Shown: in pieces, positions 27,301 through 60,571 of the stretch | Numbering within the stretch: the stretch's first letter is position 1 | Layout: each line of letters begins with the position of its first letter | NCBI RefSeq assembly: GCF_020991005.1 | Contig: NZ_JAJLLW010000002.1 | Coordinates: 186,001-250,000 of the forward strand | Source of the DNA: Halomonas sp. CUBES01 | GTDB lineage: Bacteria > Pseudomonadota > Gammaproteobacteria > Pseudomonadales > Halomonadaceae | Direction: 5' to 3' | Length of the DNA: 64,000 nt | The notes under the pieces: model-generated | What the model was told of the DNA's origin: nothing | Databases searched by the model: none | Seen by the model: the letters and a program-made list of their open reading frames with translations, nothing else | Made by a program: the position numbers and the translations under genes

Positions 27301-27404
27301 GCGATTCTCAAGGCGGTGGCGTCTATGTGCCGCTGGGTAACAACAAGCATATCCTTATCAAAAGTGGGTTGGCGCTCACCGATTGACTTACTGCCATTTA
27401 ACGC

Positions 27405-27423: not shown

Positions 27424-27460
27424 TTATTCCGTGGTGTTAATCAAGGCAGGAGGCCAAACC

Positions 27461-27973: not shown

Positions 27974-28104
27974 GCCCACTTTAGTTATGCCTCCTTTGTT
28001 GTCGCTTTGTTACACTGTCATCAGATGGCTATAGCGTCGAAGAGCCTAGACGCTTCCCCAGGCAAGTATTGAGCGGACAGCAATAGCGAGGTTTGACAGT
28101 AACG

Positions 28105-28311
28105 ATGGATAATGAAAGCGGCGACGATGCCGTTTGGCAAACTGCTATTGACTGGCTGATGCGAGAGCATGAAGAGACGTTGAGCGACGCTGATCGCGAA
28201 GCGCTGCATGCATGGTTGGCAGACTCTTCCCAGCATCGCCGAGTATTTCATGAAGCAGAACAGCTTTGGCTGCTCACGGGGATGATTCCGCGCAGTGATG
28301 AGCGCAACTGA
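28105..28311 (+). CDS. Stand-alone FecR N-terminal (DUF4880) domain protein
   Basis: 68 residues covering only the cytoplasmic N-terminal domain of FecR-type anti-sigma regulators: AIDWLMREHEETLSDADREALHAWLADSSQHRRVFHEAEQLW. The usual transmembrane helix and periplasmic FecR domain are absent, and the stop is clean. In FecR the N-terminal domain alone contacts the sigma factor, and fragments of it can activate. This small protein could therefore be a soluble modulator of the adjacent sigma factor, or just a relic. Start by ATG at 28105 with GCGAGG upstream. Confidence 0.8.
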   Translation: MDNESGDDAVWQTAIDWLMREHEETLSDADREALHAWLADSSQHRRVFHEAEQLWLLTGMIPRSDERN

Positions 28312-28477: not shown

Positions 28478-28497
28478 AAGTAATGAGAAGCAATTGC
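28478..28497. promoter_or_regulatory. Possible Fur half-site just downstream of the IS box
   Basis: AAGTAATGAGAAGCAATTGC contains the TAATGAGAA element common in gammaproteobacterial Fur sites. It overlaps the expected transcription start of the mbtH promoter, so it could add direct Fur repression. Imperfect match. Confidence 0.35.
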
Positions 28498-28538
28498 GTT
28501 TTATTTCTCATTCCTTAGGCAACGGTGAGGTTCTACCC

Positions 28539-28784
28539 ATGACAAGCTGTTTTGATCGTGAAGATGCTGTTTTCCGCGTATTAGTCAACCACGAAGAGCA
28601 GTACTCCCTCTGGCCGGAATGGAAAGCGATTCCTGCTGGCTGGACGGATACCGGTGTGCTCGGCGATAAGCCAACCTGCCTCGACTACGTCGAAAAGACC
28701 TGGACCGATATGCGACCACTGTCACTGCGCCAGTGGATGGATGAGCAAGCCAGTGCCGAGGCGGAGCAGGTGAATGCCGGTTAA
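28539..28784 (+). CDS. MbtH-family NRPS accessory protein
   Basis: 81 residues with the MbtH signature: [10 protein letters not shown] at about residue 18, then IPAGW and, later, [18 protein letters not shown]. MbtH-like proteins bind adenylation domains and are needed for their folding or activity. It is the first gene of the siderophore operon and overlaps the thioesterase gene by 11 bases. GAGG lies upstream of the ATG. The C-terminal tail (about 65-81) is Glu/Ala-rich and not part of the core fold. Confidence 0.96.
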
Positions 28785-29514
28785 ACGTTTAAGGCTGCTC
28801 TGCCTGCCCTGCGCCGGGGCCAGCGCCACCATGTATCTGCGCTGGAAGCGCCAGTTGCCCGCCTGGGTCGAGGTGTATCCCGTCGAATTGCCTGGGCGTG
28901 GCGAGCGCCTGGGTGAGCCGCTTATCGACGACTTCGAGACCCAGGTGGTGCGGCTGTGCGAAGAGCAAGCAACACGGATGCGCGGTGATTTTGCCCTGTT
29001 CGGCCACAGCATGGGGGCGCTGCTGGCCTACGGCATGGCGGCACGCTTGCGCGATGTGGGGCGCCCTCAGCCACGGATGTTATTCGCCTCAGGCAGTGCG
29101 GCGCCCTCAATGCGCGACCCAGAACGCTTGGCGGGGCTTGATAACGATAAGGCCTTAATCGCGGATCTGCGCCAACAGGGCGGCACTCCTGAGGAAGTCT
29201 TCGAAAGCCCTGAACTGCTGCGCCTTACCCTGGACGTGTTAGCAGCGGACTATCGCCTCTGCCGCAGTTTCCGCTATCGCGGCGGGTCGCCGCTTGCTTA
29301 CCCCCTACAGGTACTCGCTGGGCGTGAAGACGATATCGAGGAAGAGCGTCTGGAAGCGTGGCGGCGGGAAGCAGGCGGGGCGTTCTCTTTAAACTGGTTC
29401 AAAGGCGGCCACTTCTTTATTCGCCAGCAGCAAGCGCAAGTGCTGGAGACCATAGAACGTGCGCTGACCCGGCGGCTTGAGGAGGTGCCCCATGCAGCGC
29501 CTGCGGTTAGCTGA
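28774..29514 (+). CDS. Type II thioesterase of the NRPS cluster
   Basis: 246 residues with the alpha/beta-hydrolase TEII pattern: [16 protein letters not shown] at the start, [13 protein letters not shown], catalytic Ser in [12 protein letters not shown] (about residue 76), and catalytic His in FKGGHFFI near 210. Type II thioesterases remove wrong or non-natural groups from carrier-domain phosphopantetheine arms, keeping the assembly line running. It overlaps mbtH by 11 bases and the PPTase gene by 23, showing tight coupling. Confidence 0.94.
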
Positions 29515-30199
29515 AGGGGTGCCCGAGGGGCTTGAGGTCTGGTGCCTGGCGCTCGACCTGAATGCCCCGGTGGCCGACGACGATCGACTGCTGAGCCGAG
29601 CCGAGTGGCAGCGTGCCCAGCAGTTTCGCCATCACGCCGATGCCATCCGAGCCATGGCGACACGCGCTGCCCTGCGGCGACTGCTATCCGCGCGCACCGG
29701 TATAGCGCCAGAAAAGCTGGTGTTCACTCAGAACGCCTACGGTAAGCCAGAGCTGGAAAACGCTGAGGGGCCTGCTTTCAATGTTTCCCACTCTGGCCAT
29801 GTCGCCCTGATCGCGCTCGCTCCCGGCGGCGCGGTGGGGGTCGATATTGAGCGTCGCCGACCCGAGGACGAACTGGCGCCGTTGCATGGGCTGGTGCTAT
29901 CGCCTAGCGAGCAGCGTGATCACATTAGCGGCGCCAATCTCCCCTTTATGGAGCGCTGGGTGGTCAAAGAGGCGGTGCTCAAAACCCTGGGCCTTGGGAT
30001 TACCGATCATCTGCAGTCGCTCTCTATTACGTCCTCTTCAGGGCCGAACACCTATCACCTTGAGCACTCGCTTCCCGTGTCATCACCTCTGCAGGCATGG
30101 CCGCTGCCAGCGCCGAGTGGCTATGCCGCTGCCCTGGGTTATATCGACACAAGCTATCTCGACTCGGGCTATAGCGATCAAGGCTATGCCCAAGGTTAA
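29492..30199 (+). CDS. Sfp-type 4'-phosphopantetheinyl transferase
   Basis: About 235 residues. The three Sfp motifs are present: FNVSHSG near residue 90, VGVDIERR near 112 (Mg-binding Asp/Glu), and RWVVKEAVLKTLG near 155. It transfers phosphopantetheine from CoA onto carrier domains, converting the NRPS to its active form. I use the ATG at 29492 with GGAGG just upstream; five more codons are open before it. The C-terminal tail is an odd Tyr/Ser/Asp-rich repeat (SYLDSGYSDQGYAQG), probably flexible. Confidence 0.94.
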   Translation: MQRLRLAEGVPEGLEVWCLALDLNAPVADDDRLLSRAEWQRAQQFRHHADAIRAMATRAALRRLLSARTGIAPEKLVFTQNAYGKPELENAEGPAFNVSHSGHVALIALAPGGAVGVDIERRRPEDELAPLHGLVLSPSEQRDHISGANLPFMERWVVKEAVLKTLGLGITDHLQSLSITSSSGPNTYHLEHSLPVSSPLQAWPLPAPSGYAAALGYIDTSYLDSGYSDQGYAQG

Positions 30200-30230
30200 C
30201 GCTACTCAATGACTTTTTAGGAGATCAATA

Positions 30231-31232
30231 ATGGACAGCCAAAGCGCAACACTAACGCACCCAACCAACGCCATATCCCAACGTCAGGGGCCAGCTGATT
30301 CTGAGCTGCCCATGATGATTTCCCCCGCCTACCCAGGGCAGCCGCTGCTGGAAGCCTTCGACGATTTGCGTGCGGATATTGAGTCACTAGTGACCAAAGT
30401 GGGCGGCGTGCTACTGAGAGGCTTTGACGTTCCCGCCGTTGATGATTTTCAACAGTTTGCCGCCGCCTTTGGCCATCCGCTGCTGAGCTACGAGTTCGCC
30501 TCGACGCCACGCTCAGCGGTGTCATCGGGTATTTATACCTCCACCGAATACCCCGCCCATCAACATATTCCCCTTCACAACGAGCAGGCCTATACCCGTG
30601 AGTGGCCGATGAAAATCTGGTTCCACTGTGTCACCGCGTCACCCGAGGGGGGAGAGACGCCGATAGCCGATAGCCGTGCCATTTACCGCCGTATGCCGGT
30701 AGAGATTCGTGAGCGCTTTGCCCCCGGGATTCTCTACGTACGCAACTACGGCGATTTCGATATGCCTTGGCAAAAGGTGTTTAACACCGAAGACCGCGCT
30801 GAAGTGGAGGCATTCTGCCAGCGCGCGGGGATTCGCTGCGAATGGAAACCCGACGGCGACCTGCGTACCACCCAGCTATGCCAAGGCATAGAGACTCACC
30901 CGGTCACCGGTGAGCCGGTGTGGTTCAACCAGGGCCACCTTTTCCATGTCTCCAACCTGCAGCCAGAAGTACGTGAATCGCTGGAAGAGATGCTCGACCC
31001 CGAAGACATGCCGCGCAACGTTTTCTTTGCCGATGGCAGCCCCATTGACGATGCCATTTTCGATGAGATCCGCGGCGTAATGGCCGAGGAAACGGTGATG
31101 TTCCCCTGGCAGGCGGGCGATGTGCTGATGCTCGACAATATGTTGGTCGCCCACGCACGAACGCCGTTTAAAGGGCCGCGCAAAGTCGTTGTCGCCATGG
31201 CGGAAGGTCACGGCAACCTCTCCAACGACTGA
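30231..31232 (+). CDS. Stand-alone Fe(II)/2-oxoglutarate aspartyl beta-hydroxylase (SyrP/TauD-like, probable T-beta-H-Asp type)
   Basis: 333 residues of the TauD/TfdA clan, SyrP branch. Iron ligands are seen as HNEQ (His-x-Glu, about residue 116) and the distal His in DNMLVAHARTPF near 305. The Arg for 2-oxoglutarate is in GPRKVVVAM. In siderophore clusters, stand-alone enzymes of this type hydroxylate carrier-bound L-Asp at the beta carbon; the delftibactin enzyme gives L-erythro-beta-hydroxyaspartate. A second hydroxylase of the same fold is fused to the next gene, so two Asp residues are probably modified by different enzymes. Subtype and stereochemistry are inferences from architecture. 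Confidence 0.88.
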   Translation: MDSQSATLTHPTNAISQRQGPADSELPMMISPAYPGQPLLEAFDDLRADIESLVTKVGGVLLRGFDVPAVDDFQQFAAAFGHPLLSYEFASTPRSAVSSGIYTSTEYPAHQHIPLHNEQAYTREWPMKIWFHCVTASPEGGETPIADSRAIYRRMPVEIRERFAPGILYVRNYGDFDMPWQKVFNTEDRAEVEAFCQRAGIRCEWKPDGDLRTTQLCQGIETHPVTGEPVWFNQGHLFHVSNLQPEVRESLEEMLDPEDMPRNVFFADGSPIDDAIFDEIRGVMAEETVMFPWQAGDVLMLDNMLVAHARTPFKGPRKVVVAMAEGHGNLSND

Positions 31233-31277
31233 ACGCAACACTTTACCCCACGGCCAGGAACTCCAGCAGGTACGTAT

Positions 31278-34200
31278 ATGAATATTAGGCACGCTCAGAC
31301 AGTGAACAGCCGCCCGTCCCATAACGATGCTAGTCGCAATGACGCTTTTAGAAGCTATGTCGAGCATTTAAGTCGCCTGGCCCGGGAAAGGCCCAACGAC
31401 AGGGCGCTGACTGTGGTGAATGCTCAGGGTGAAACCACGCTTGACTACGCCACCCTGGAGCGACGTTCACGTGCCCTGGCCAGCGAGCTACAACAACGGT
31501 TCCCTGTGGGCGAGCGTGCCTTGATCCTGCTGGATAACGATGAACACTACGTGGTGGCGTTCTTTGCCTGTCTGTACGCCGGGGTGATTGCTGTGCCGGT
31601 CTTCCCACCGGAGTCGGCCAAGCAGCAGCACCTGGCACGTCTGTTTGCCATCGCCGATGATTCTCAGGCTGCCTGTGTGCTCACTTCTTCGACGATTATT
31701 GAGCTGGTTGCTTCAGCGGGAAAGGACTTCGGTAGCGCTGAATTGATCCCCGTAGATGCAGTAAACGAGGTCCTCGCTGACCATTGGGTCGAGCATCGCC
31801 CTAAGCGCGATGATATCGCCTTTTTGCAATATACCTCAGGCTCCACGGCCACGCCCAAAGGCGTTATGGTCAGCCATGGCAACCTAATGGCCAATGAGCG
31901 CGCTATCGAGACAGGTTTCTCGATTGGTGCTGATGATGTCTTCGTTAGTTGGCTACCGCTTTACCACGACATGGGGCTGATCGGCGGCCTGCTGCAGCCC
32001 CTCTATCGCGGTATTCCTGCGGTATTGATGAGCCCCACCTTCTTTTTGCAGCGGCCGGTACGTTGGCTGGAAGCGATTTCCCGCCACCGGGGCACCATTA
32101 GCGGTGGCCCCGATTTCGCTTATCGGCTGTGCCTTGATCGTATTCGCGACGAACAGATTGAAACACTCGATTTATCCAGCTGGCGGGTCGCCTTCTCAGG
32201 CGCCGAGCCGGTACGCCACGCAACCCTCACTGGCTTTATTGAACGCTTCTGCCCGGCGGGCTTCTCTGCTGATACCGCAGCCCCTTGCTATGGTCTAGCT
32301 GAAGCCACGCTGCTGGTTAGCTGTAATCCGCGCAGTACGGGCGTGGTGGGCACGACTTTTTCGCAACAGTCGCTGGCCGAGGGGAAGGCCGCCTCAGCGG
32401 TGGAAGGCAATACACTGGTGGACTGCGGCACCCCGGAGCCAGGCCACGCAATCGATATTGTCGATCCCGATGGGCTTCACTCGCTGCCCGAAGGCGACGT
32501 CGGCGAGATCTGGGTCCAAGGGCCCAGCGTGGCACAGGGGTATTGGCACAACCCTGAAGCCACGGCTAAAACCTTTGTTACCCGTGATGGCGTTAGCTGG
32601 CAACGTACCGGGGCTCACGATAGCGACGCTCACGATACCAATGCACAGGGCCACGACGCCCAAGACGATCGCTGGCTACGCACCGGCGATCTAGGCTTTT
32701 TACACCAAGGGCAGCTGTATATCGCCGGGCGTATTAAAGACCTGATCATTCTACGCGGCAATAACGTCTACCCCCAGGACATCGAGAGCGCTGTCGAGGC
32801 GGAAGTGGAAGCCGTGCGCAAAGGGCGCGTGGCGGCCTTTGCCGTGACAACACCGGAAGGCGCCGAAGGGATCGGCGTTGCGGCAGAAGTCTCCCGTGGT
32901 ATGCAGAAGCTGGTACCCGCTGAGAAGTTGATCGAGGCATTAAGGGAGGCGGTGGGATCCGCCTGCCATGAGCCGCTTTCTGTTGCGCTACTACTCAACC
33001 CCGGTGGCCTGCCCAAAACCTCCAGCGGCAAGCTACAGCGCAGCGCCTGCCGCCAAGGCTGGGAAGCGGGCAGCCTGGATGCCTACGCCATTCACGCCTT
33101 CGGGCATTTTGTCAGCGGTGGCGACGATAAGGACGCTGCTTCTGGAGAATCATCGCAATCTAGTGCGGAACCAGGGAGTGAAACGGAGCAGACGTTAGCG
33201 ACGCTCTGGCGCCAAGTGCTGGCAGACAGCAAGGAAACGCCACTGGGGAGTAATGCCCACTTCTTCGCCAGCGGGGGGAATTCGCTGGCGGCGGTGCAGT
33301 TGGCTTCACGCATTAGCGATCATTGGGCGATTGATTTCCCGACCAGATCGGTCATGGAAAAGCCGCGCTTTAGAGATGTGGTTGGTGAAGTAGAGCGCCG
33401 GTTAGCGAAGCCTTCGGCTTTTCGTCAGGGAGCTATCAAGAATCCACTGATGCCGATTCCCCGGAATTCGGAACTACCTTTGGCACCTGTCCAGCGCCGG
33501 CTCTGGCTGGTTGATCGCTTGGCAAGTCAGGCGGGCGACCGTGAGCGTGCAGCCTATAACCTTCCAGCGCTGTTTTCCCTGACAGGGGAGTTGAATATAG
33601 AGGTTCTGGAGCGAACCGTTAATGCCATCGTTGCGCGGCATGAAGCCTTGCGTACCCACTACCCCGAAAGTGAGCGTGGTGATCCCATTGCGGTTATCGA
33701 AGATCAGCTAAACATCGAACTGCCTGTTTTGGATTGCAGCGATCTTTCAGAGCAAGAACAGCAGCGATATCTGCAAGATACTTTCGCCGAGTATGCGAAC
33801 ACACCGTTAGACCTTGCCACTGGGCCACTAATTAAGGCGGGTTTACTGCGTTTTAGCGCACATGACCATGCCCTGGTCCTGGTCATTCACCACATCGTTT
33901 TCGACGGTTGGTCGACGAGCGTATTCATCCGGGAGTTTGCCACTCTGTACGGGGAGTTGTTGGAAGGGAAGGAATCCGAGTTACCCGAACTGGGCATTCA
34001 GTACGTGGACTACGCCGCTTGGCATGAGAAAGCACTGTCAGGAGCCGCCTTCGAGCAAAGTGCAACCTTCTGGCGTCGCTATCTAAGGAATGCTCCTCCG
34101 CTCTCATCACTACCAGCGGACTTCTCTAGGCCTAGCCAAGTCTCCCATGCCGGTAGTGCCCTCAGCATGACACTGAGTCCAGACCTATCACAAGCGTTGA

Positions 34201-35921
34201 ACAAGCTTGCCGCACAGCGTGGCACCACGCTATTTACCCTTCTATTGGCGAGTTTTCAGCTATTGATGCATCGCCAGACACGTCAACAAGACCTGGTGGT
34301 GGGAACCGATGTCGCTGGCCGTAGCCATCCCGATGTCGAGCCGCTAATTGGCTTTTTCGTCAATGTCATCCCACTACGATCTCGTTTGGCTGATGGCCAG
34401 CTTGATTTCGGCCACTGGCTCGAGCAAGTACAGACCAGCATGCTGGATGCCTTCGACCATCAAGACGTTCCCTTCGACAGAATTGTCGAACTTTCGGGAA
34501 TTAGCCGTGAGCGCGATCGCTCCCCCCTGATACAAACCCTCTTCGTACTACAAAACACGCCAACCGAGCGGTTCTCACTTCCGGGTCTTGAGGTGGAGGT
34601 AATGCCTCAACCCCGGCAGGAGTCGAAGTTCGATATGGCGGTATTCGTTGATGAAAGTGATACCGGACTATCAGTCGAGTGGGTCTACGCAACTGCCTTG
34701 TATCGACACGAAACCATCGAGTACTTGACCGGTGCCTGGCAGTCGCTACTAGCGCAAATCGTGGAAGCTCCCAGCACGCCCGTTGAGGAGTTTCGCTTAC
34801 CCCTAATGGAGAAACACGCTATGCAAAACAAGCTTTCAAAAGGTTCCAAACTCAACAAGCTTGGCAGCCTGAAATCCCAGCCAGGTGCGCGCCCCTCGAC
34901 CAACAGTGACTCACCAGTACGAACGGCGTTGTTTGACGAAAAAAGGGTCTTTCCCCTGGTGATCGAAGCGACGGATGCTGATCTTGATGCGGTGGCGTGG
35001 GCAACGTCCCAGCGTGACTTCATCGAACAGCACTTACGCACGCACGCAGGCATCCTGTTCCGTAACTTTGACCTTACCACGCCGCAAGAGTTTGAGGCCT
35101 TTGCCGAGGCTATCCAGCCGGGCCTTTACGGCAATTATGGCGACCTGCCCAAGAAAGAAGGGGGGCGTAATACCTACCGTTCAACCCCCTATCCCGAGCG
35201 CCAGATGATTCTTTATCACAACGAAAGTTCGCATTTGGAGCGCTGGCCGCGCAAACAACTGTTCTTCTGCGAGAATCCTTCTCCTGTGGGAGGCGCCACC
35301 CCGATCGTTGACTGCCGCGAGATGCTGCGCCAACTCCCCGCCGACGTGGTGGAGGAGTTCGAGCGCAAAGGGCTGCTTTATGTGCGCACCTTCACCCGCA
35401 ACCTGGACGTGAGCTGGCGAGACTTTTTCAAAACCGACAGCAAAGAGGAGGTGGAAGCGCGGCTCAAAGAAGCGGGAATCGAATGGCAGTGGTTGGGTGA
35501 TGACGAGCTGCAGACACGTACGCACTGTCCTGCGGTAGTTACCCATCCCGTGACCGGTGACCGAGTGTTCTTCAATCAGGTGCAGCTCCACCACGTCAGC
35601 TGCCTTGAGCCTGATGTGAAAGAAGACCTGCTTGGCATGGTTGGCCCGGAGCGCCTGCCGCGCAATGTCTATTTCGGTGATGGCTCCGTGATTAGCGACG
35701 AGATAATGAAGGTTGTCGGCGAGGCCTACGAAGCTTGTGCGGTGCGCTTCGACTGGCGCCGGGGCGATGTGGTGATGGTCGACAATATGTTAGCGGCCCA
35801 TGCCCGGGATCCCTACGAGGGGCCACGCAAAATCGTGGTGGCGATGGGAGACATCTATGAGCGTTCGGCGCTGGAAGAGGCCCAAGGGGCAAGTGCCGAT
35901 GCCGAGTTGGTCGATCAATAA
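31278..35921 (+). CDS. NRPS 1: fatty acyl-AMP ligase - carrier - condensation - fused aspartyl beta-hydroxylase
   Basis: 1547 residues. Domains: FAAL (about 25-600; YTSGSTATPKGVMVSHGNL, and WLPLYHDMGLIGGLLQPLYRG typical of acyl-AMP ligases); carrier (about 625-700; FASGGNSLAAVQ); condensation (about 730-1165; HHIVFDGWS intact near 871); then a linker and a TauD/SyrP-like dioxygenase (about 1215-1530; iron ligands in LYHNESSHLERW near 1314 and MLAAHARDP near 1506). The FAAL loads a fatty acid on the first carrier, and the condensation domain joins it to the first amino acid on NRPS 2. A hydroxylase at the C-terminus of an NRPS is the reported 'I-beta-H-Asp' layout, linked to L-threo-beta-hydroxyaspartate. 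No adenylation domain for amino acids is present in this protein. Confidence 0.92.
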   Translation: MNIRHAQTVNSRPSHNDASRNDAFRSYVEHLSRLARERPNDRALTVVNAQGETTLDYATLERRSRALASELQQRFPVGERALILLDNDEHYVVAFFACLYAGVIAVPVFPPESAKQQHLARLFAIADDSQAACVLTSSTIIELVASAGKDFGSAELIPVDAVNEVLADHWVEHRPKRDDIAFLQYTSGSTATPKGVMVSHGNLMANERAIETGFSIGADDVFVSWLPLYHDMGLIGGLLQPLYRGIPAVLMSPTFFLQRPVRWLEAISRHRGTISGGPDFAYRLCLDRIRDEQIETLDLSSWRVAFSGAEPVRHATLTGFIERFCPAGFSADTAAPCYGLAEATLLVSCNPRSTGVVGTTFSQQSLAEGKAASAVEGNTLVDCGTPEPGHAIDIVDPDGLHSLPEGDVGEIWVQGPSVAQGYWHNPEATAKTFVTRDGVSWQRTGAHDSDAHDTNAQGHDAQDDRWLRTGDLGFLHQGQLYIAGRIKDLIILRGNNVYPQDIESAVEAEVEAVRKGRVAAFAVTTPEGAEGIGVAAEVSRGMQKLVPAEKLIEALREAVGSACHEPLSVALLLNPGGLPKTSSGKLQRSACRQGWEAGSLDAYAIHAFGHFVSGGDDKDAASGESSQSSAEPGSETEQTLATLWRQVLADSKETPLGSNAHFFASGGNSLAAVQLASRISDHWAIDFPTRSVMEKPRFRDVVGEVERRLAKPSAFRQGAIKNPLMPIPRNSELPLAPVQRRLWLVDRLASQAGDRERAAYNLPALFSLTGELNIEVLERTVNAIVARHEALRTHYPESERGDPIAVIEDQLNIELPVLDCSDLSEQEQQRYLQDTFAEYANTPLDLATGPLIKAGLLRFSAHDHALVLVIHHIVFDGWSTSVFIREFATLYGELLEGKESELPELGIQYVDYAAWHEKALSGAAFEQSATFWRRYLRNAPPLSSLPADFSRPSQVSHAGSALSMTLSPDLSQALNKLAAQRGTTLFTLLLASFQLLMHRQTRQQDLVVGTDVAGRSHPDVEPLIGFFVNVIPLRSRLADGQLDFGHWLEQVQTSMLDAFDHQDVPFDRIVELSGISRERDRSPLIQTLFVLQNTPTERFSLPGLEVEVMPQPRQESKFDMAVFVDESDTGLSVEWVYATALYRHETIEYLTGAWQSLLAQIVEAPSTPVEEFRLPLMEKHAMQNKLSKGSKLNKLGSLKSQPGARPSTNSDSPVRTALFDEKRVFPLVIEATDADLDAVAWATSQRDFIEQHLRTHAGILFRNFDLTTPQEFEAFAEAIQPGLYGNYGDLPKKEGGRNTYRSTPYPERQMILYHNESSHLERWPRKQLFFCENPSPVGGATPIVDCREMLRQLPADVVEEFERKGLLYVRTFTRNLDVSWRDFFKTDSKEEVEARLKEAGIEWQWLGDDELQTRTHCPAVVTHPVTGDRVFFNQVQLHHVSCLEPDVKEDLLGMVGPERLPRNVYFGDGSVISDEIMKVVGEAYEACAVRFDWRRGDVVMVDNMLAAHARDPYEGPRKIVVAMGDIYERSALEEAQGASADAELVDQ

Positions 35922-35946
35922 AGTCACGGGGTTTGGGAGTCAATAA

Positions 35947-38900
35947 ATGAATGCGATAACGGAACAGCAGAGCCTTGCCCATTGGCCGCTTAGCCCTGAA
36001 CAGCGCGCGGTGTTGGTGGCGGCGGAAGCTAATGAAAGCGACACCCAGCAGGCAGCATCGGCGCAAGTCGATGTCATGGTGGTCGATATCCAAGGTGCTC
36101 TTAATAGCTCGCGGTTGGAGCGTGCACTGAGCGACCTTAGGCAACAGCATGAAGCCCTATCAACGGCTTTGAAGAGCGTGGCCGGGTATCGCGGGCTGCG
36201 TCACCAAGCGCTTGAAAACCTTCCTGCTATCGAGTGGCAGCATGAGGACTTACGCGGCAGCGATGACAAGGAAGCGCTGCTCAACGACTTTCTTAATATC
36301 TATCGCGAGTCAATGAAGCGCCGGCCCCTTGCCCTAGAATCCGGTGAGCTGATGCGTCCAGCGCTGCTGCAAACGGGTGAAACAACCTGGGTATTAGTTC
36401 TGGCTGTTTCGGCGTTGGTGGCGGATCGCGGCAGTCTGCAGTCGCTGTTCTCAGCGTTGGCGGATGCTTACGATCAGAGCGAAGGAGCCGATGAGGATTC
36501 TGCGCTGCAGTATTCCCAGTTCATCGAGTGGCGCGCTTCGCTCGAAAACGACGATGACGCCAAAGCGGGCCGTGAGTATTGGCAAAGGCACCAGCAGCAT
36601 GCCGAGCAGGCAGGCGCATGCCGCTTACCTGCCAGGCAAGCGAACCGCCATGGCGTGCGGGTAGAACATGAATATGTGGACTTGGAACTCGAACCAGACC
36701 TCGTAGCGCGTATCGATAGCCTGGCAGATGAGCTTCAAGTATCCGCCGAGGCAGTTTTACAGGCAGCTTGGTGGGCGTTACTCGTCAGGATTAGTGGCAA
36801 TGAGCGTGTGCTAGGTGGTTGGCAACACGACTGCCGCCAGGATTACGAGGTGATGCAAGGGGCGATCGGGCTCTTCGACAAGGTACTGCCGGTACTGGTT
36901 GAAGGTGTCGCTGATAGCGATTTCTCTGGCTGGATCGCCCGCTTGTCAGAGCAGTTAGAAGCGCATACCCAAGCCCAAGAGTATTGGTCGATTGATGCGC
37001 TGCCTGATAAGCGCCACCTCGCAGTGGGGTTCGCATTTTCAGAGGAAGTGAGTGAGCTAAAGTCGGCGGGTTTGCAGTGGCGCTTGCGAGAAGTGCCTGG
37101 GCCATCGACAGAATTTGAACTTGCCTTGCACGTTGGCCGCAGTGAGAGCGGCGTGGTGGCGACGCTCTACGCCGACCCATCTTGCTATAGCCTAGCGGCG
37201 GCCGAGTGCCTGCTGGATCAGTACCATACGTTGCTAAAGGCGGGCCTAGCCGACCCAGCGCAAAAGCTATTTTCGGTGCCTCTTATCTCTCCTGAGCAAC
37301 AGCAGGGATTACTGTCGATTGGAGACAATGTGCTTGACGTGGGCGAACGTAGCGTAGCTGCCCATATCGCTGCCTGGGCGGCTTCGACGCCGGATGCCAT
37401 TGCCATTGAGGAGCAGGGCCGTACGTTGAGTTACGCCCAACTAGAAGCCCGCGTTAACAATATCGCTCGGTGGTTGGATGGTCAGGGCGTTAAGCATGGA
37501 GATTATGTAGCACTTAATTTGCCCCGATCCACCGATTTGGTCGTGCTACTGCTAGCAGTATGGCGTGTAGGCGCCGCTTACCTGCCGCTCGACACTGAGT
37601 GGCCCGTAGACCGTAAACGGCGGGTGCTTGAGGATGCCCAGCCCGCGCTCGTGGTGAGCGCTGAAAACGTCGAGGCGGAACTTGCAGCACTGGCCCTTCC
37701 TGGTATCCACAGTGTAGGGCTGCCACAAGAAGTGGAAGAAGTAGGTGGCGCATTACCGTTTCCAGAGCCAGAACTCGGTGACGTGGCTTACCTTCTCTAT
37801 ACCTCTGGCTCCACCGGTACTCCAAAAGGTGTGGTGATTGAACATGGTCAACTGCTCAATTACGTAGCCGGTGCCACAAAGGTCATGGGTCTATCGGTAT
37901 GCCAGCGCTGGACATTGACCGGGTCGCTGGCCACCGACCTAGTTAATACAGCGCTGTTCGGTGCCTTGTTCAATGGTGCTCGCCTGGTGATCGCCACACC
38001 TGACGATATGCAGGATGGCGACCACTTTGCGCGCTTTATGTCGGCGGCCGATATTGATGCGCTCAAGATAGTGCCGTCTCATCTGGAGGCCCTGCTGGAG
38101 TGCGAAGCCCCACGGTTGCCGAAAACGCTGATTCTAGGCGGCGAGGCCGCTTCACCTGCCTTGCTTTCGAGCATTGCGCGGATCTCGCCCGAGTGCCAGC
38201 TATACAACCACTATGGCCCTACAGAAGCCACGGTGGGCGTTATGGTGCACCCGGTATCGCTGTCGCAAGATATTCAAGGCCCGTTGCCGCTAACCCAACT
38301 GCTACCGAACTGCCGCTACCGAGTGCTTGACGATAACTTGCAAGCGACCCCCACCGGGGCCATGGGTGAGCTGTATCTGGGCGGCGCTCAACTGGCGCGG
38401 GGGTATCTCAATAGCGATGCTTCCGCGTTTGTCGAAGATCCCTTTATTGACGGTGAACGGCTCTATCGCACCGGCGATCTGGCGTGCGTGCTACCCGAGG
38501 GTGGCGTACGCCTTATTGGGCGAGCTGACGATCAGATCAAGCTGCGTGGCTTCCGTATTGAACCAGCAGAAATCGAAAGCGTGTTGCAAGCACAACCAGG
38601 GGTTAAGCAGAGTCTGGTTCGCCTGATGGGTCGGGGCGGTGATACCCAGGAACTCGTAGCGTTCCTGATCGCTGACGCCGAGGTAACGTCCGTTGAGGGC
38701 CAAGCCCAACTGCGCGAGCAACTGACTGTGCTGCTGCCTGAGCCCATGCGTCCTTCTCGTTTTATCCCTGTTGAGCATTTCCCCCGCCTAGGTAATGGCA
38801 AGGTAGATACCACCGCGCTGGAAGCCTTGGCCCAAAAAACCGCAGAAAGTAAAACCCTGGTGAAGCCCCGGGATGCCGTGGAAGCCACCCTGTGCCAAGC

Positions 38901-39135: not shown

Positions 39136-39193
39136 GTAGCCAAATTTGCCTAATAACATCATTTGTAACGCGGTACAGGAAGAGGATTTAGTG

Positions 39194-42475: not shown

Positions 42476-42478
42476 AGC

Positions 42479-45400: not shown

Positions 45401-48400
45401 CTGGAGGCTCTGCCGCTAACCGCCAATGGTAAGTTGGATCGCAAGGCGCTGCCTGAGCCGGTGCAAACCAGTAGTGGCAAAGCCTTTGAAGCTCCCCAAG
45501 GAGAAGCAGAAGAGGCGTTGGCAGCGGTTTGGGCTGACGTGATCGGCTGCGAGCAGGTGGGGCGTAATGACAACTTTTTCGAACTGGGTGGCGACTCCAT
45601 CCTCAGCCTGCAGATCGTCGCGCGCTCTCGTAAGCGTGGCTACAAGGTAACGCCCAAACAGTTGATGGAAGGGCAGACCATCGCTGCCGTGGCGGCGATG
45701 GCCACGCCCCTGGCGGCGGCCGTACCTAAACAAGTGGTTGCGCCCGATAAGGTGGCTCCCTTTGCACTGCTGCCGACACAGCGCTGGTTCTTCGAGCAGA
45801 ACTTTGCCGAGCCACACCACTGGAATCAGTCGTTGATGCTGGAAGCGGCCAGTGGTGTGGATGCCACGCTGTTACGGCGTGCCATTGAGGCAGTGGTCGA
45901 TCATCATGGCGCCTTGCGGCTGCACTTTGAGCGCATCGACGATCGCTGGCAACAAGCCTATGGCAAGCTAGCCGATGACCTCTTCGAGCACCTCGACTTG
46001 AGCGATCATGCGGATCCAACGCAGGCCATCACCCAGGCCGCCGATGCTGCGCAACGCAGTCTGAGTTTGGCGCGGCCGTTCCGTGCCATCTGGATGGCAC
46101 TGGGAGGCGAGCATGGCGGACGACTGCTGCTAGTGGCTCACCACCTGGTGGTAGATGGCGTCTCGTGGCGCGTGATTCTCGACGACCTGCAAGCGGCCTA
46201 CACGCAGTTAAGTGCAGCAAAGGCGCTCGACCTACCACCAGCCACCACTTCGCTAGATGAGTGGGCGCGCACCCTGGCCGACTACGCCACATCGGAGGCG
46301 TTGGCTGAGCAACGCCCCTATTGGGAAAGCCTCGTCAACGAGCCAGAGCCTAGCCTACCGGCACAGAATCTCCAGGGCAGCAACACCGTTGCCGATACCG
46401 CATCACTTGCAGGCAGCTTGTCTACTGAGGCAACCACGCAACTGCTGGGGCCGGTGCATAAGGCCTACCGTACCCAAGTGGATGACCTGTTGCTCACGGC
46501 ACTTTCGAGCGCCCTATGCCAATGGGCGGAGCGAGACAGCGTACTGATCGAACTGGAAGGTCATGGCCGCGAAGACCTGTTCGAGGGTATCGACCTCAGT
46601 CGCAGCGTGGGCTGGTTCACATCCCTCTACCCAGTTCGCCTGAGACCGGGTAATGCGGAGCCGGGTTCGAGGCTAAAAGCAATCAAAGAGCAACTTCGCC
46701 AAGTGCCTGACAAGGGGCTCGGTTACGGCGTGCTGCGCTATTTGAAAGAGGAACCCGCGCTGGTCGGTGGCGCCTACCCCCAGGTCACCTTCAATTATCT
46801 AGGCCAGTTTGACCGCTCTCTGCAGGGCGATGCGGCCTGGAAACTCGCCAAAGAGAACGCCGGGCAGCCCCGCGCGGCGCAAAATGAGCGCCGGACTTGG
46901 ATTGAGGTGGTGGCCTGGGCTCAAGATGGCCAACTGCGCTTCGACTGGCATTACAGTCGTGAGATTCACAGCGAGGCAGCGATACATGCCTTGCAAGCAA
47001 GCTTCCAAGCGCAACTAGAGGCATTGATTGAGCACTGTGACAGCGGCGTTCGTGGCGCCACGCCATCCGACTTCCCGCTGGCGGGGCTGAGTCAGGCGCA
47101 GTTGGATGATTTGCGATTGGATGCCACCAATGTTGAGGACATCTACCCGCTGGCACCGATGCAGCAAGGGCTACTATTGCATACCCTGCTCAATCCAGGC
47201 GCGGGTATGTACATGATGCAGGATCGCTACCGGTTTGCTTCGCCGATTGATATCAATGCTTTTGAGAAAGCCTGGCAACGAGTCGTCGAACGGTATGAGG
47301 TTTTACGTACAGGATTCGTCTGGCAAACCGAAGACATGCAGTTGCAAGTGGTGTATCGGCAAGTTCCTTCGCCCGTGGAATATATCGATTGGCACGGCAC
47401 GGACGAGGATGAGGCTGATCGTCGCTTGTCGAAGTTATTGCGCCAGGAACTTGATGATGGCTTCGATCTGGAAAGGCCACCACTGCTCAAGGTACGCCTT
47501 ATTCAACTGGCGGAGAACCTGTTCTACGTCGTACAGAGTTTCCACCATATTCTGATGGATGCCTGGTGCCGCTCCCTGTTGCTCAGCGATTTCTTCCACT
47601 ACTACGATGCCTATCGTCTAGGTACGCGTCATGAGCTGACGCAACCAAGGCCTTATCGTGATTTTATCGCTTGGTTGCAGCAACAGGATGTCAATGTCCT
47701 CCGCAACTATTGGCAACATGAGCTTGAAGGTTTCGATGAGGTAACACCAATTCCTTATCTTAAACCGCACGGTTCGCTCGACAGTGTTGCCACGGTGGCC
47801 GATGTATTCTCTTCTCTCTCCCACGATGAGAGTGTAGAGCTACAGAACGTTGCTCGACAGCATCAATTGACTGTCAATACGATCGTACAAGGGGCATGGG
47901 CACTGCTGTTAGGGCGGCTTTCCCAGGTGGATGACATCCTATTCGGCGTGACAGTGGCTGGGCGCCCGCTAGAACTTGAGGGCATACAGGAGACGGTTGG
48001 GTTGTTTATCAACACGATTCCACTGCGGGTTTCAGCGCCTTTGCCGCAAACCTCCGTCCTTGAGTGGCTGCATGGGCTATTGGCGAAAAACCTGGAGGTG
48101 CGCCAATACGAGCACCTGCCGCTAGTAGAAATCCAATCGTTGGGAGAGGGGGTACAAGGGCGCAGTCTATTCGATAGTCTTTTTGTTTTTGAGAACGCTC
48201 CGGTAGATGCCAGCTTGACTGGGAAAGGGCAAGACTTCCAGGTAGCAATCAAAGGCAACCGCACGCATACCAACTATCCTTTGACTGTCGTAGTCATGCC
48301 TGGAGATGAGTTAACACTGCAGCTCTCCTACGATGCGCGTAAATTCGAAGGTGCCGAAGTTGAGTGTTTGCTCTCGGAGTTCCGCCAAGTTCTTTTGCAA

Positions 48401-51400
48401 ATTATCGACAGCCCTGACGCTCCATATCACGAATTGGAAGTGATGCCAGCAGGGGAGGTAAAAACGCAATTAATGCAAAGAAGTGGAGCGTCGGTTGCTT
48501 ATCCCTTTGAGCGAGGCTATATCGAGCTGTTCCGTGAGCAGGTACGACAGCATCCACGCCAAGTTGCCGTTCGCCACGAGGGAGAGTTGCTCACTTATGA
48601 TCAGCTAGAAGGCACCTCTAATCGCATTGCCCAGTCACTGCGGGAAGTAGGGGTGAAGAAGGATGACGTCGTGGCTCTGCATGCCGAGCGTGGCTTGGCG
48701 TTACCGAGCATGATTCTGGGTACGTTCAAGGCTGGCGGTGCGTATCTAGCGTTGGATACACGGCTTCCTGATCAGCGTATCGCCGATATGCTGTCTAGCC
48801 AGGCATCGGTTCTGGTTGCCACTGCTGAGCAAACACCGCGTCTCGAAGCTGTGCTTGCATCCATGCCCAACCCACCGCAGATGTTTGTGTTCGAAGATCT
48901 CGTCCTGGCGGAAGGGCTAGAGGGGGATATCACCGTACCGGTGCACCCAGATCAGGCTGCCTATGTCATCTATACCTCCGGTTCGACCGGTGAACCCAAG
49001 GGCGTAGTCGTTAGTCATCGTGGCATGCTCAATAACCAGTTGAGCAAGGTTCCCTACCTGGGTCTGTCGGCCAGCGATGTCATCGCCCAGACTGCAGCGC
49101 TGAGTTTCGATATCTCCGTCTGGCAAACGCTGACGGGACTGTTGTGTGGAGCCAGCATCGAGATCGTGCCTGATGAGATTGCACGCGATCCCAGTGCGTT
49201 GCTTCCTTATGTGCGCGATAACGGTGTCACAGTACTGCAAAGCGTACCTGCAGTGATACAGGGAATGTTGAATACTACCTCAGTCGACCTGCCAGCACTG
49301 CGCTGGTTGCTGCCTACGGGCGAAGCCTCAACGTATGAACTAGTGCGCCAATGGTTTGCACGCTATCCAGCGATCCCATTGGTCAATGCCTATGGCCCTG
49401 CAGAATGTGCCGATGACGTATCCCTGCACTTGCTGCGTAGCGACAATGACGAGCATGTAGCTGTGGTGCCAATCGGTAAACCGGCCGATAACACCCAGCT
49501 ATTCGTCCTAGACAACCAACTGAATCCGTTACCAACGGGGGTGAGTGGCGAGCTATATGTCGCCGGTGTTGGGGTTGGGCGGGGTTACCTGAATCAGCCG
49601 CAGCTGACGGCGGAGCGCTTCGTGCCCAACCCGTTTGCCGATGTGCCTGGGGAGCGGCTCTACCGGACAGGCGATCTGGCCCGCTACCGCACCGATGGGG
49701 CTATTGAATACATCGGACGCACCGATCAACAGGTCAAGATCCGGGGGCAGCGTCTCGAACTCGGTGAGATCGAGTCCCGGTTGGTGGAGTTCGAAGAAAT
49801 CCGTGATTCGGTAGTGGTGGCTCAGGAAGGGCCAGGAGGAGCCAGGTTAGTGGCTTATGCCGTTGCCCAGCCACATGAATCGATCGATACGGCTGAGCTA
49901 CGCGAACGTCTGGGGCAGGTATTGCCGGACTATATGGTGCCAAGTTTGGTGATGATGCTCGATGCCTTGCCACTAACGCCCAACGGCAAGGTGGATCGCA
50001 AGGCATTGCCAGAGCCGGACTTCACCAGTAGTTCGCAATACGAGCCGCCCCAAGGTAAGACGGAAGAGGCGCTGGCGGCGATTTGGAGCGAGGTGCTGGG
50101 TGTCGAGCAGGTAGGGCGTCACGACAACTTCTTTGAGCTAGGGGGACACTCTCTGTTGGCACTGAGTGTGCTTGAGCGTATGCGAGTTCGAGGGCTGGAA
50201 TCTCAAGTACGGACGTTGTTCCAGTCGCCAGAACTAGCAGCCTTTGCCAAGGCGCTGTCCATAGAGCCTGATAGGAAAAAACTGGTTGTACCGCCCAACA
50301 GGATTCCAGAGCATTGTCAGTCGATCCAGCCGGACATGCTGACACTGATCGATTTGGATACTGATGAAATCAGTCGCATAGAAGATGCAGTGCCAAGCGG
50401 AGCGATCAATATCCAGGACATCTACCCTCTGGCACCGTTGCAGGAGGGTATCCTGTTCCATCACCGATTACAGCAAGAGGGTGACACGTATGTACTCCCT
50501 TGCTTACTTGGTTTTGATAGCCAGGAACGGCTTGAGCAGTTCGTTGCTGGTTTCAATCAACTTATTGCCCGTCACGATATTCTGCGCACTGCAGTGCTCT
50601 GGGAAGGGCTTCATGAACCAGTACAAGTAGTGTATCGGCACGCCTCACTAGAGGTGGAGTGGCTAGAGCTGGAAGAACCCGATACCTCGTGCAGCGTTTC
50701 CGAACGACTAAACGCCCATGTTGATCCTGAGCATTATCGCATCGATGTACGCCAGGCGCCGATGGTGCGAGCTATTGCGGCACAAGATGCTGAGCAAGGG
50801 CGATGGCTGCTGCAATTGCCCAGCCACCACCTGGTGCTCGATCACACCACACTTGATCTGCTAGTGGACGAGATTGCCTTAATCCAGCAAGGGCGAGAAG
50901 GAGAGCTACCCAAACCGCTGCCATTCCGAAACTTCGTAGCACAGGCAAGGTTGGGAGTGAGTCAGACAGAGCATGAAGCCTTCTTTAGAGAAAAATTGGG
51001 CGATGTTGAGGAGCCTACTGCTCCATTCGGATTACTGGATGTACGTGGCGATGGCAGTGGCATTGAGGAGATTCGCCTACCACTGACAGCAGAACTGGCC
51101 CAACAAGTTCGACAGCAAGCACAGCGACATGGTGTCAGTACCGCTACCCTATTTCACTTAGCTTGGGCGCAAGTGCTGAGTAAAACGACAGGGCGGGACG
51201 ACGTGGTGTTCGGCACTCTACTATTTGGCCGTATGCAAGGTAGTGAGGGCGCCGAAAGAGCACTTGGAATGTTCATTAACACGTTACCTATTCGTATTAG
51301 ACTAGGTGCTAACAGCGTGGGCGGCTGTTTACGCCAGACCCATAGCGAGTTGGCCGAATTGTTGAACCACGAGCATGCTAGTCTCGGACTAGCACAGCGA

Positions 51401-54373
51401 TGCAGCGGAGTAGGTGGAGGATCACCACTGTTCTCAACCTTACTGAACTATCGTTATAGTGCTCTAGAGGAGAATGCAACTAGCCGGGCGTGGGAGGGGA
51501 TGAAAGCCCTGGGCAATCGGGGGCGTACTAACTACCCAATTGTGATGTCAGTAGACGACTTTGGCGAGGGGTTCCAGCTGGTGGCGCAGGTTAGCCACAA
51601 ACTCGGGGCTCAGCGGTTGTGTGATTATATGTGTGCGGCACTGGTCGGCATTGTAAATAGTCTTCAAAAGGCGCCTCAGCAATCATTGAGCGATATCAGC
51701 CTGCTAGGAAAAGACGAAAGGCAATTGTTGAACGAGTGGGGAGAGAGCTTACTCCAGCATCCCAGTGGTCAGCCAGTCCACCGAATGATTGAATGCCAAG
51801 CCATGAAGACGCCAGAGGCAATGGCATTGATCTTCTCAGAGCACCGTCTCAGCTACGGCGAGCTTAATATTCGTGCCAACCGTTTAGCGCACTATTTGAT
51901 TGGCTTGGGTGTGCGCCCTGAAACCCGGGTGGGCATTGCCGTTGAGCGTTCTATCGAGATGGTAGTAGGGCTATTGGCTGTTCTCAAAGCTGGCGGTGCA
52001 TATGTGCCGCTGGATCCTGATTACCCCACTGAACGGCTTGCTTATATTGCCGAAGACAGTGGCATCGAACTGCTCCTGACCCAACAGTTTCTTCGCGAGA
52101 TTTTGCCAGTCTCGGAAAGTCTGAGCGTTATTGAGTTGGATCAGTTGGATGTCACGCATCACGCCTCGACAAACCCTTCGGTGGCGATCCACGGCGAGCA
52201 CCTCGCCTATGTGATTTACACCTCAGGCTCCACCGGGCGACCCAAGGGCGCCGCCATCCGCCATAATGCCTTGACCAACTGCATGGTCTGGATGCAGGAG
52301 ACCTATCAGCTCAATGAGTCAGATGCTGTCTTGCATAAGGCGCCCTTCGGTTTTGACGTCTCCGTATGGGAGATTTTCTGGCCATTGAGTGCCGGAGTTC
52401 GCCTCGTGGTAGCTCAACCAGGCGATCATCGGGATCCAGAACGCATCATCGAGTTGATCCAGCGGCACGGCGTTACCACGCTCAATTTTGTGCCCTCAAT
52501 GCTCAAGGCCTTCCTGGCCTATCCCGATGTTAAGACCAATACGCGGCTCAAGCATATTATGTGTGGTGGTGAGGCCGTTCCAGCCACGCTGCAGCAGGAC
52601 GTGGCTGAGTGTCTCGAAGGTGCCAATCTGCATGATCTTTATGGTCCTACTGAAACCACTATTCATGTCACTCACTGGTGGTGCCGTGATGACGCGCACC
52701 GTCAGATCCCCATTGGGCGACCCATTAGCGGTACCCGCACCTACGTCTTGGATGGTGAACTCAGCCTGGTACCCCAGGGCGTCACGGGAGAGCTCTATAT
52801 CGGAGGGGTAAGCCTGGCCCGTGGCTATCTCAATCGCAGTGGTCTCACAGCGGAGCGTTTTGTCGCTGATCCGTTCACGGAGGGCGAGCGCCTCTACCGT
52901 ACGGGGGACCTGGTGCGCTGGCGGGAGGATGGCCAGCTTGAGTACCTGGGTCGTCTTGATCACCAAGTGAAGATCCGCGGCCTGCGTATAGAACTAGGTG
53001 AGATCGAAGCCGAGCTGTTGGCTCAACCGGAGATTCGCGAAGCGGTAGTGGTTGCACAGGAAAGTCCTAGTGGCTCGAGGCTAGTGGTCTATGTGGTGCC
53101 TCAAGCCGAAGGTGGGCTCGATACCCGCGCACTACGTGAAGCGCTGGGCCAAACTCTACCGGATTATATGGTGCCGGGCGTCGTGATTACGTTGGATGCA
53201 CTGCCGTTGAATGCCAATGGCAAGGTGGATCGTAAAGCGTTGCCCGAGCCGGATCTAGAGGAAATTCGCGAGTATGTGGCACCCTCTACCTCGGAAGCCC
53301 AGCAGCTCGCCGAGATATGGCAAGAAGTGTTGGGTGTTGAACGGGTCGGTGAGACCGACAACTTCTTCGAGTTGGGCGGGGACTCCCTGCTGAGCTTGAA
53401 AGTGATGGGGCGCGTGCAAGCACTGCGGAAACCTAGACTTAACTTCAAATTGTTCGACCTAATGCAGAAACCGACCATTGCGGATCTGCTGGGACTGAGG
53501 GGTAACAGCGAGTCGCTGCCCAAAGGGACTGTCATGCTCAACGGTGAGTGTCCCGATCAGCCGCCGCTATTCTGCATCCATGCTGTGATGGGAACGGTTT
53601 ACGACTATCAACCGTTGGCCCGACACCTGCAGGGAATATGTACGGTCTATGGACTGCCGTGCCGGATGCTAACTGATCCTGAGCATCAAGACTCGTCGCT
53701 GGAGGCAATGGCGGATGCCTATGTTGAGACAATACGCCGCATACAGCCTATGGGGCCCTATCGGCTATTGGGTTGGTCCCTTGGTGGGGCATTGGCGGCG
53801 ATGATCGCGGCACGGCTTGAAAGGGTAGGGCAAGATGTAAGCCATTTGGCTTTGATAGACCCCTATATACCTGGCGTTGGCCTCCACAGTGAGGATAGCT
53901 GGGAGAGAGATTTCGTTAACTTTGCATCGATAATACTGCCAGGCGTTGACCTTGAAACGCATGATGGTAATGAAGAGAGCGTGCAAGAACCGAGTGAGGA
54001 GAAGGTTGCCATTAAGTTGTCGAGGCTAATGGAATCATTCGATGCATATGGTCGTGAGGGCTACGCAGCTTTGGATAACGAGGAGCTTGCTCGAATATTC
54101 TGTGTGGCGAGATACTTGAAAAAGCTCTCCCTCCAAATTGATACTTTGCCAAAGTTGAGTTGCAACATAGGTTGCTGGTGGTCAGAAGAGCGTCTGCAAA
54201 AAGAACAACAAGCGTTAGCTCAACAGGTAGGGCAAGTGCCAGATCTTACTATTGAGGTTTCCGAGGGGCATTTCTCTATCGTCTCCAGTGATTCCGTGTT
54301 GCCGCAGGTGGTGGAAAAGCTGCAAGAGGAGACTCATCCATCGAGACATGTAGAGGAGAGCTCAATGGTTTGA
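42479..54373 (+). CDS. NRPS 4: C-A(Asp)-T-E-C-A-T-C-A-T-TE, terminal synthetase
   Basis: 3964 residues, three modules. Module 1: C (45-470, HHIACDGWS), A (495-1000; code D-L-T-K-I-G-H-V-G, Asp), T (GGDSILSL, ~1037), E (1085-1530; [20 protein letters not shown]), so D-Asp. Module 2: C (1550-1985, FHHILMDAW), A (2010-2500; D-I-W-Q-L-T-A-D-D, two acidic residues suggesting a basic substrate such as Dab or Orn), T (GGHSLLAL). Module 3: C (2640-3080) whose start reads [10 protein letters not shown], near the HH(I/L)xxxxGD mark of dual epimerisation/condensation domains, with HHLVLDH at the main motif; A (3100-3590; D-V-W-N-M-G-L-I-H, tentatively N-hydroxyornithine); T (GGDSLLSL); TE (3690-3950; GWSLGG, EGHFS) for release. 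It begins three bases after NRPS 3. Confidence 0.93.
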
Positions 54374-60514: not shown

Positions 60515-60571
60515 GGGCGGTTCGTCTTAGAAGTAGCTGTCGATTTTCAATCGCTTTCCAACGAGGTGAAT

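Follow-up and report, generated by a model that had tools for sequence, protein, structure and literature searches.

A predicted lipopeptide siderophore assembly line in Halomonas sp. CUBES01 with a fourth adenylation domain of the diaminobutyrate clade

Introduction

Among the known lipopeptide siderophores carrying beta-hydroxyaspartate (OHAsp), cupriachelin of Cupriavidus necator is an acylated pentapeptide with the residues OHAsp, diaminobutyrate (Dab), OHAsp, Gly and N5-hydroxyornithine (OHOrn) in that order; the terminal OHOrn is N-acylated, and the OHAsp residues are L-threo and L-erythro diastereomers (PMC10484230). The potashchelins of Halomonas sp. MG34 are made by a nonribosomal peptide synthetase (NRPS) line that starts FAAL-ACP-C-TauD-C-A(Asp)-PCP-C-A(Ser), in which a fatty acyl-AMP ligase (FAAL) and an acyl carrier protein (ACP) precede condensation (C), adenylation (A) and peptidyl carrier (PCP, here T) domains (PMC7100376). 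In marinobactin and formomarinobactin, a D-OHAsp-Dab pair is built by A(Asp)-T-E-C-A(Dab), where E is an epimerization domain, and the cluster includes a TauD gene; formomarinobactin reads Asp-Dab-Ser-OHOrn-Ser-OHOrn and has a two-plus-four-module layout (PMC13037486). In the pyoverdine synthetase PvdL, Glu, D-Tyr and Dab are added in that order (PMC6206403).

Here we analyse an NRPS locus in a 64,000-nucleotide stretch of Halomonas sp. CUBES01 (bases 186001-250000 of contig NZ_JAJLLW010000002.1; genome of 3.60 Mb in 30 contigs), referred to as the window. An initial annotation had proposed a siderophore line here, with a fourth residue left unnamed. We propose, with a probability of roughly 0.65, that the locus directs synthesis of acyl-L-threo-OHAsp-L-Ser-D-threo-OHAsp-Dab-OHOrn, an amphiphilic mixed-ligand siderophore. 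Domain calls are Pfam matches above cut-off, supplemented by NCBIfam and TIGR models for transport and regulatory genes. Relatives were drawn in part from 275 searched genomes of the family; labels beginning with G, L and P denote the genomes, loci and proteins compared.

Organization of the assembly line

Pfam recovers five amino-acid A domains, one more AMP-binding domain, and C, PP-binding, TauD and thioesterase (TE) domains, all above cut-off. At the whole-protein level, C, A and TauD reach E-values of 3e-42 or lower, the TE about 1e-24 and the carriers 2e-8 or lower. For the first AMP-binding domain, the solved matches are fatty acyl-AMP ligases. The overall layout is FAAL-ACP-C-TauD / C0-A1-T / C-A2-T / C-A3-T-E-C-A4-T-C-A5-T-TE, with the following features.

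31278..35921 (+), NRPS 1, FAAL-ACP-C-TauD (Pfam, FAAL structure matches)
31338..33107 (+), fatty acyl-AMP ligase domain (solved FAAL-type ligases)
35947..39135 (+), NRPS 2, interface(C0)-A1(Asp)-T (Pfam, code)
35962..37326 (+), C0, inactive interface-type condensation-superfamily domain, in which AVSALVADRGSL replaces HHxxxDG
37357..38826 (+), A1, code DLTKIGHVGK, Asp (code read-out)
39146..42475 (+), NRPS 3, C-A2(Ser)-T (Pfam, code)
40670..42145 (+), A2, code DVWHVSLIDK, Ser (code read-out)
42479..54373 (+), NRPS 4, C-A3(Asp)-T-E-C-A4(Dab-type)-T-C/E-A5(OHOrn)-T-TE (Pfam, codes)
43979..45457 (+), A3, code DLTKIGHVGK, Asp (code read-out)
45749..47068 (+), epimerization domain, predicted to convert residue 3 to D (closest solved chains PvdL, 335 bits)
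47114..48463 (+), C4, DCL-type condensation domain (AWCR signature)
48518..50014 (+), A4, code DIWQLTADDK, diaminobutyrate clade (code, structure matches, tree)
50399..51754 (+), C5, probable dual condensation/epimerization (C/E) domain (motifs)
51773..53248 (+), A5, code DVWNMGLIHK, N5-hydroxyornithine (code read-out)
53534..54313 (+), terminal thioesterase, release or cyclization (PF00975)

The FAAL start, five amino-acid A domains, single E domain and TE claimed in the initial annotation are therefore borne out by Pfam and solved-structure matches. The same holds for its pockets, since the code read-out gives Ser, DIWQLTADDK, DVWNMGLIHK and two Asp, A1 and A3 both reading DLTKIGHVGK. The assignments to Asp, Ser and OHOrn follow the standard codes. 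Together with the position of the E domain, the codes support the annotated order Asp-Ser-D-Asp-X-OHOrn.

A loading protein FAAL-ACP-C-TauD followed by C-A(Asp)-T has the layout of the fused-TauD siderophore start described in PMC7100376, and the Asp and Ser codes at modules 1 and 2 fit the start of potashchelin. Set beside the antiSMASH chelator rule for NRP metallophores (PMC12971057), the locus has Condensation and AMP-binding domains in a single coding sequence, as the first part of the rule asks; for the chelator-pathway part (an IBH_Asp/TBH_Asp hydroxylase or an ornithine monooxygenase) it shows Pfam TauD and PF13434 matches, which are generic models and not the rule's own. At C0, the HH of HHxxxDG is gone in all nine sibling copies, the window's included. 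With its altered motif, C0 fits a non-catalytic interface domain of the kind reportedly described by Reitz in 2019. The AWCR signature of C4 also occurs in the C domains ahead of Dab-type A domains in a PvdL-type protein (G553) and in two clusters of marinobactin architecture (G635, G458). C5 carries the motifs HHRLQQEGD and HHLVLDH, presumably the look of a dual C/E domain, which it probably is. Domains of this sort were labelled CDual by the authors who described potashchelin (PMC7100376).

Two aspartyl beta-hydroxylases

The locus encodes two TauD-type hydroxylases, 38% identical to each other, both with intact Fe(II) ligands (HNE and NML(V/A)AHAR...PRK).

30231..31232 (+), stand-alone TauD aspartyl beta-hydroxylase, predicted for the module 3 Asp (expected 3R; PF02668)
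34950..35867 (+), fused TauD aspartyl beta-hydroxylase, predicted for the module 1 Asp (expected 3S; PF02668)

In the fetched clusters, the next protein after a fused TauD had the layout inactive C-A(Asp)-T in nine of nine cases. Within the fetched stretches, a stand-alone TauD was present in 13 of the 14 clusters with an A(Asp)-T-E unit (the window, G258, G247, G027, G207, L038, G202, G010, G012, G635, G458, G459 and G581); the exception, G192, has a separate TauD-like match about 13 kb outside its fetched stretch. No stand-alone TauD was found in the fetched stretches of the three complete clusters that lack an Asp-T-E unit (G232, G242 and G024). Loci L036, L037, L039 and L040 belong to the same organisms as G207, G202, G010 and G027 and were counted once, and the count leaves out G221 (incomplete locus) and G553 (no Asp module). 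This co-occurrence suggests that the fused TauD probably acts on residue 1 and the stand-alone TauD on residue 3. Potashchelin, with the same kind of loading protein, carries L-threo-OHAsp next to the fatty acid (PMC7100376), and according to the cyanochelin B paper, fused hydroxylases give S and stand-alone ones R products. An R-specific stand-alone TauD, combined with the E domain, means that residue 3 should be D-threo. In one relative (G242:C1:300400-340200), two Asp units are of the fused-TauD/interface kind, and the fetched stretch lacks a stand-alone TauD.

The fourth adenylation domain

The fourth pocket, an "unassigned acidic pocket" in the initial annotation, can be assigned to the Dab clade. 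The best solved matches of the A4 pocket region were four PvdL chains (168 bits), followed by sulfazecin A domain 9n1u (78 bits); the PvdL entries are titled PvdL-E2-C3-A3, and 9n1u is diaminopropionate-bound. These PvdL chains also contain the E domain that the window's own E domain matches best (335 bits). On an A-domain tree of 89 tips, the 18 domains with DIW[E/Q]xTxDD group in a single clade (support 1.0), which contains PvdL-type, marinobactin-architecture and halomonad domains and places A4 with Dab modules of known architecture. For organisms represented by both an L locus and a G genome the tree uses the L loci, and its P and G tips were mostly retrieved with A4 as query, which biases the size of the clade. 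D330, D331 and the remaining pocket residues of A4 are as in Dab domains. By this sequence comparison the fourth pocket is a member of the Dab clade, and residue 4 is likely to be Dab. A gamma-linked Glu at position 4, which would follow if the PvdL match were read as the Glu module, was also considered. We rejected it because the matched chains are E2-C3-A3, because the window's E domain matches those same chains, and because the PvdL-type protein of G553 has DIWE after its E domain and another code in its first module.

Several observations weigh against Dab. Position 278 of A4 is Gln, whereas the PvdL-type and marinobactin-architecture Dab domains examined have Glu, so that A4 departs from the Dab pocket DIWE-x-TADDK at this position. 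Over the whole of A4, linear gramicidin synthetase chains outscore PvdL when two stretches are summed, and VIA-align ranks a Ser-activating domain first. In addition, no Dab transaminase gene was found in the cluster; the marinobactin cluster of Marinobacter, as described in PMC13037486, is likewise not self-sufficient for Dab.

The Gln at position 278 may mean that the substrate has shifted, in which case the same line would place an amide side chain, Gln or N4-acetyl-Dab, at position 4. Gln codes usually carry Q278, and Orn and Dab codes E278. Among the best 45 of 120 listed proteins (9 DIWQ, 25 DIWE and 11 other codes), Q278 is found in all nine that are at least 80% identical to A4, which include the window's own and four from named halomonads. 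On the tree, the window and each of the five loci close to it likewise have Q278, while the marinobactin-type clusters G012 and G192 of the same family retain E278. Moreover, Gln occurs in loihichelin of a Halomonas (PMC6836290). Nevertheless, we regard an amide residue as unlikely, since the rest of the pocket, D330 and D331 included, is Dab-like, A4 nests within the Dab clade, and in Vreelandella glaciei and H. salipaludis an A4-type domain follows acyl-D-OHAsp, the place of the Dab in marinobactin. We favor Dab; as A4 lacks Glu278, our claim is limited to a domain that is derived from Dab domains and probably functions in the same way.

When the genome was searched with two Dab transaminase families, only EctB passed the cut-offs (C29:45469-46707), beside ectoine synthase (46787-47167). 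Since no other gene passed, EctB may be the source of Dab, and we give supply of plain Dab by this ectoine enzyme about an even chance. It is also conceivable, if quite improbable, that the E278Q subclade takes N4-acetyl-diaminobutyrate, an ectoine intermediate, so that the osmoprotectant pathway would directly feed siderophore synthesis; if so, ectoine flux could tune that synthesis. Supply of plain Dab by EctB is much more likely.

Proposed biosynthesis

In the route that we propose, the FAAL would load a fatty acid onto the ACP and the starter C domain would couple it to the Asp of module 1; the fused TauD, guided by the interface domain C0, would hydroxylate this tethered Asp. Module 2 would add Ser. 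The stand-alone TauD would hydroxylate Asp 3 and the E domain would epimerize it, after which the DCL domain C4 would add diaminobutyrate; C5 may turn Dab to the D form. N5-hydroxyornithine, supplied by the N-monooxygenase, would end the chain, to be acylated by the GNAT enzyme or cyclized on release, and the TE would release the product. Two OHAsp residues and one hydroxamate would give six oxygen donors for Fe(III). Photoreactivity of the product is predicted as well, as are its stereochemistry and acyl length.

Domains, codes and gene content support the siderophore that had been annotated here, a lipopeptide bearing two OHAsp residues and a single hydroxamate. The acyl group placed on its terminal OHOrn is not established, because potashchelin has an acyltransferase gene in its cluster and yet its only Orn is a cyclic N-OH-Orn (PMC7100376). 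Also counting against the product as drawn, a GNAT gene is no proof of acyl-OHOrn, and the dual C/E call for C5 comes from motifs. The code DVWNMGLIHK was considered as proof of acyl-OHOrn and rejected.

Comparison with characterised siderophores

Of the known products, cupriachelin comes nearest in layout, and the relationship to it that had been annotated is supported: cupriachelin and the predicted product are both acylated pentapeptides with two OHAsp and a terminal OHOrn. The annotated contrast, a cupriachelin type "but with only five residues", fails since cupriachelin itself has five (PMC10484230). Compared by description, the two differ in that the window has a Ser code at position 2, the Dab-type code DIWQLTADDK at position 4 and an E domain giving D-OHAsp at position 3, so its order is not OHAsp-Dab-OHAsp-Gly-OHOrn. 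Aquachelin and loihichelin, also named as relatives, are not nearest in layout. Aquachelin is reportedly a longer peptide with two OHOrn residues. Here there are five modules and one OHOrn code; loihichelin has eight residues, two of them OHOrn (PMC6836290).

Beyond the start modules, the potashchelin cluster shares the stand-alone TauD, MbtH, type II thioesterase, phosphopantetheinyl transferase, N-monooxygenase and acyltransferase genes. By description, potashchelins differ in having nine residues, no E domain, no Dab and a second OHAsp that is L-erythro (PMC7100376). With marinobactin the window shares the D-OHAsp-Dab pair, which is the first two of six residues there and lies at positions 3-4 of five here; in marinobactin, Ser-OHOrn-Ser-OHOrn follows, giving one OHAsp and two hydroxamates. 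In G635 and G458, which belong to the same order, the first protein is FAAL-T-C-A(Asp)-T-E-C-A(DIWELTADDK)-T and the second C-A(Ser)-T-E-C-A-T-C-A(Ser)-T-C-A-T-E-TE, with a stand-alone TauD in the cluster, and hence the same two-plus-four-module layout as for formomarinobactin. Module 3 of PvdL has a comparable E-C-A-T block and is the closest solved relative of the E domain and the A4 pocket; it differs in adding Dab after D-Tyr, in having E278 instead of Q278 and in lacking OHAsp at the block.

It is very unlikely that the product is a Halomonas siderophore already characterised, namely aquachelin, loihichelin, halochelin, sodachelin or potashchelin. The family and the start modules are indeed those of potashchelin (PMC7100376), but its nine residues and the eight of loihichelin (PMC6836290) contrast with the five modules found here with no further NRPS gene. 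No near-identical characterised cluster with another product was found, nor any report of this pentapeptide in the openly licensed literature, in a comparison that excludes the structures of halochelin and sodachelin.

Sibling clusters

The start protein (full-length) and A4 occur together in only two of the 275 genomes searched, that of the window and that of Billgrantia aerodenitrificans (G027, the same as L040). The latter cluster has the same five codes in order, the same start, both hydroxylases and the same end; it differs in an extra E domain after Ser, which would give D-Ser, and in a Ser module fused into the last NRPS. We found no report of its product in the literature. Relative to the window's block A3-E-C4-A4, all four domains are kept in G027, L036, L037 and L039 (77-92%). 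In G258 and G247, A3 and E are kept (87-92%), C4 is at 39-40% and the line switches to a Ser module; in G012, A3 is at 86% while E, C4 and A4 differ (43, 48 and 57%).

Five-module status for every protein that shares the last NRPS was considered and rejected, since Halomonas campaniensis (G202) and Chromohalobacter marismortui (G010) have a similar last NRPS behind a one-residue OHOrn start. Their product would be acyl-OHOrn-D-OHAsp-X-OHOrn, with one OHAsp and two hydroxamates. In H. campaniensis (G202:C28:412000-431900, L037), where this tetrapeptide line is apparent, the NRPS that comes next after the loading protein is split over two overlapping reading frames close to the A(Asp)/T joint, possibly a sequencing frameshift. 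For P0064, P0083 and P0092 the last protein (86-92% identical) was compared, and five-module status is not extended to them. Further genomes with A4 (G193, G219, G256, G023 and G157) stand outside the layout comparisons.

The outer genes are conserved across the sibling clusters. The receptor is 72-83% identical to the window's in G258 (74% of the query covered), G247 and G027, all of which start with OHAsp-Ser-OHAsp and carry an E domain at the second Asp. In G232, G242 (33% covered) and G024 the identity is 48-56%, and in L037 and L039 it is 27-29%. Thus identities of at least 72% are confined to the three OHAsp-Ser-D-OHAsp starters, and the five others range from 27 to 56%; the comparison leaves out G207, G202, G012 and G221, whose downstream ends lie outside the fetched stretch. 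As a whole, the window's line is a mosaic in which a taiwachelin/potashchelin-type start is joined to a marinobactin-like D-OHAsp-Dab unit and OHOrn comes last.

Flanking genes and function

The span annotated earlier, 28539-54373, agrees with the genes at both ends, starting on an in-frame ATG of the MbtH gene and closing with the stop codon of the last NRPS gene. Five genes for hydroxamate formation, uptake and export lie beyond it and extend to 62215.

27383..27973 (+), extracytoplasmic function (ECF) sigma factor, FecI-like, probable iron-starvation regulator (Pfam Sigma70_r2/r4; NCBIfam sigma-70)
28093..28311 (+), 72-amino-acid protein with a DUF4880 domain only (PF16220)
28494..28784 (+), MbtH-like protein (PF03621; ATG at 28539)
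28774..29514 (+), type II thioesterase (PF00975)
29477..30199 (+), 4'-phosphopantetheinyl transferase (PF01648)
54509..55420 (-), FhuD-like periplasmic ferric-hydroxamate-type binding protein (PF01497; FhuD model below its cut-off)
55694..57823 (-), TonB-dependent siderophore receptor (TIGR01783 over cut-off)
57941..59233 (-), ornithine N5-monooxygenase (PF13434, 410 bits)
59257..60369 (-), GNAT acyltransferase, probably acting on N-hydroxyornithine (PF13523)
60497..62215 (+), cyclic-peptide-type export ABC transporter, which we take to be PvdE-like (TIGR01194 over cut-off)

Thus the Orn monooxygenase, GNAT, exporter, FhuD-like protein and TonB receptor genes adjoin the NRPS genes. An ECF sigma gene is present at all ten other loci whose upstream end was available, one of them cut at the edge. 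The small DUF4880-only protein beside it also occurs in sibling clusters, and a DUF4880 protein of this sort is reported for the Halomonas llamarensis cluster (PMC10291192); it is probably functional rather than a fragment.

A lipopeptide with these residues could have a main role other than iron uptake, as a surfactant or antimicrobial, and inhibition of other bacteria is on record for siderophores of this class (PMC7100376, PMC12904278). However, in P. lactucae iron abolished the inhibition itself (PMC12904278), and the receptor, FhuD-like, ECF sigma/DUF4880 and Orn monooxygenase genes adjoin a line whose product would offer six oxygen donors. Furthermore, a profile search of the whole genome gave seven PF00668 matches, all at this locus and hence no second NRPS locus on the contigs, and a search for IucA/IucC-type synthetases in the genome found none. 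A main role outside iron uptake is thus highly improbable, and we retain iron uptake as the function.

G+C content at window positions 54001-58000, covering the binding protein and receptor genes, is 42-45% compared with about 51-65% elsewhere in the window, which hints at exchange of these genes. A second periplasmic binding protein (PF01497; 25336-26367) is encoded upstream of the sigma factor; the V. glaciei cluster has a 69% identical one, likewise ahead of its sigma gene. Between ZnuA/ABC transporter genes and the siderophore locus lies a gene for an AAA-ATPase_like and PDDEXK_9 protein (23641-25224), and a PaaA2-like antitoxin and ParE-like toxin pair adjoins the cluster at 62328-62803.

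Discussion

The cluster adds to the known OHAsp lipopeptide siderophores and combines two known designs. With residue 4 named, it provides a specific, mass-testable structure for a halomonad siderophore without prior characterisation. Altogether, the comparisons depict these assembly lines as mosaics whose outer genes are conserved, whose NRPS blocks are exchangeable and whose receptor varies with the peptide. Finally, the E278Q change in a Dab pocket, together with a Dab supply that may come from ectoine synthesis alone, suggests a testable link between osmolyte and iron metabolism.

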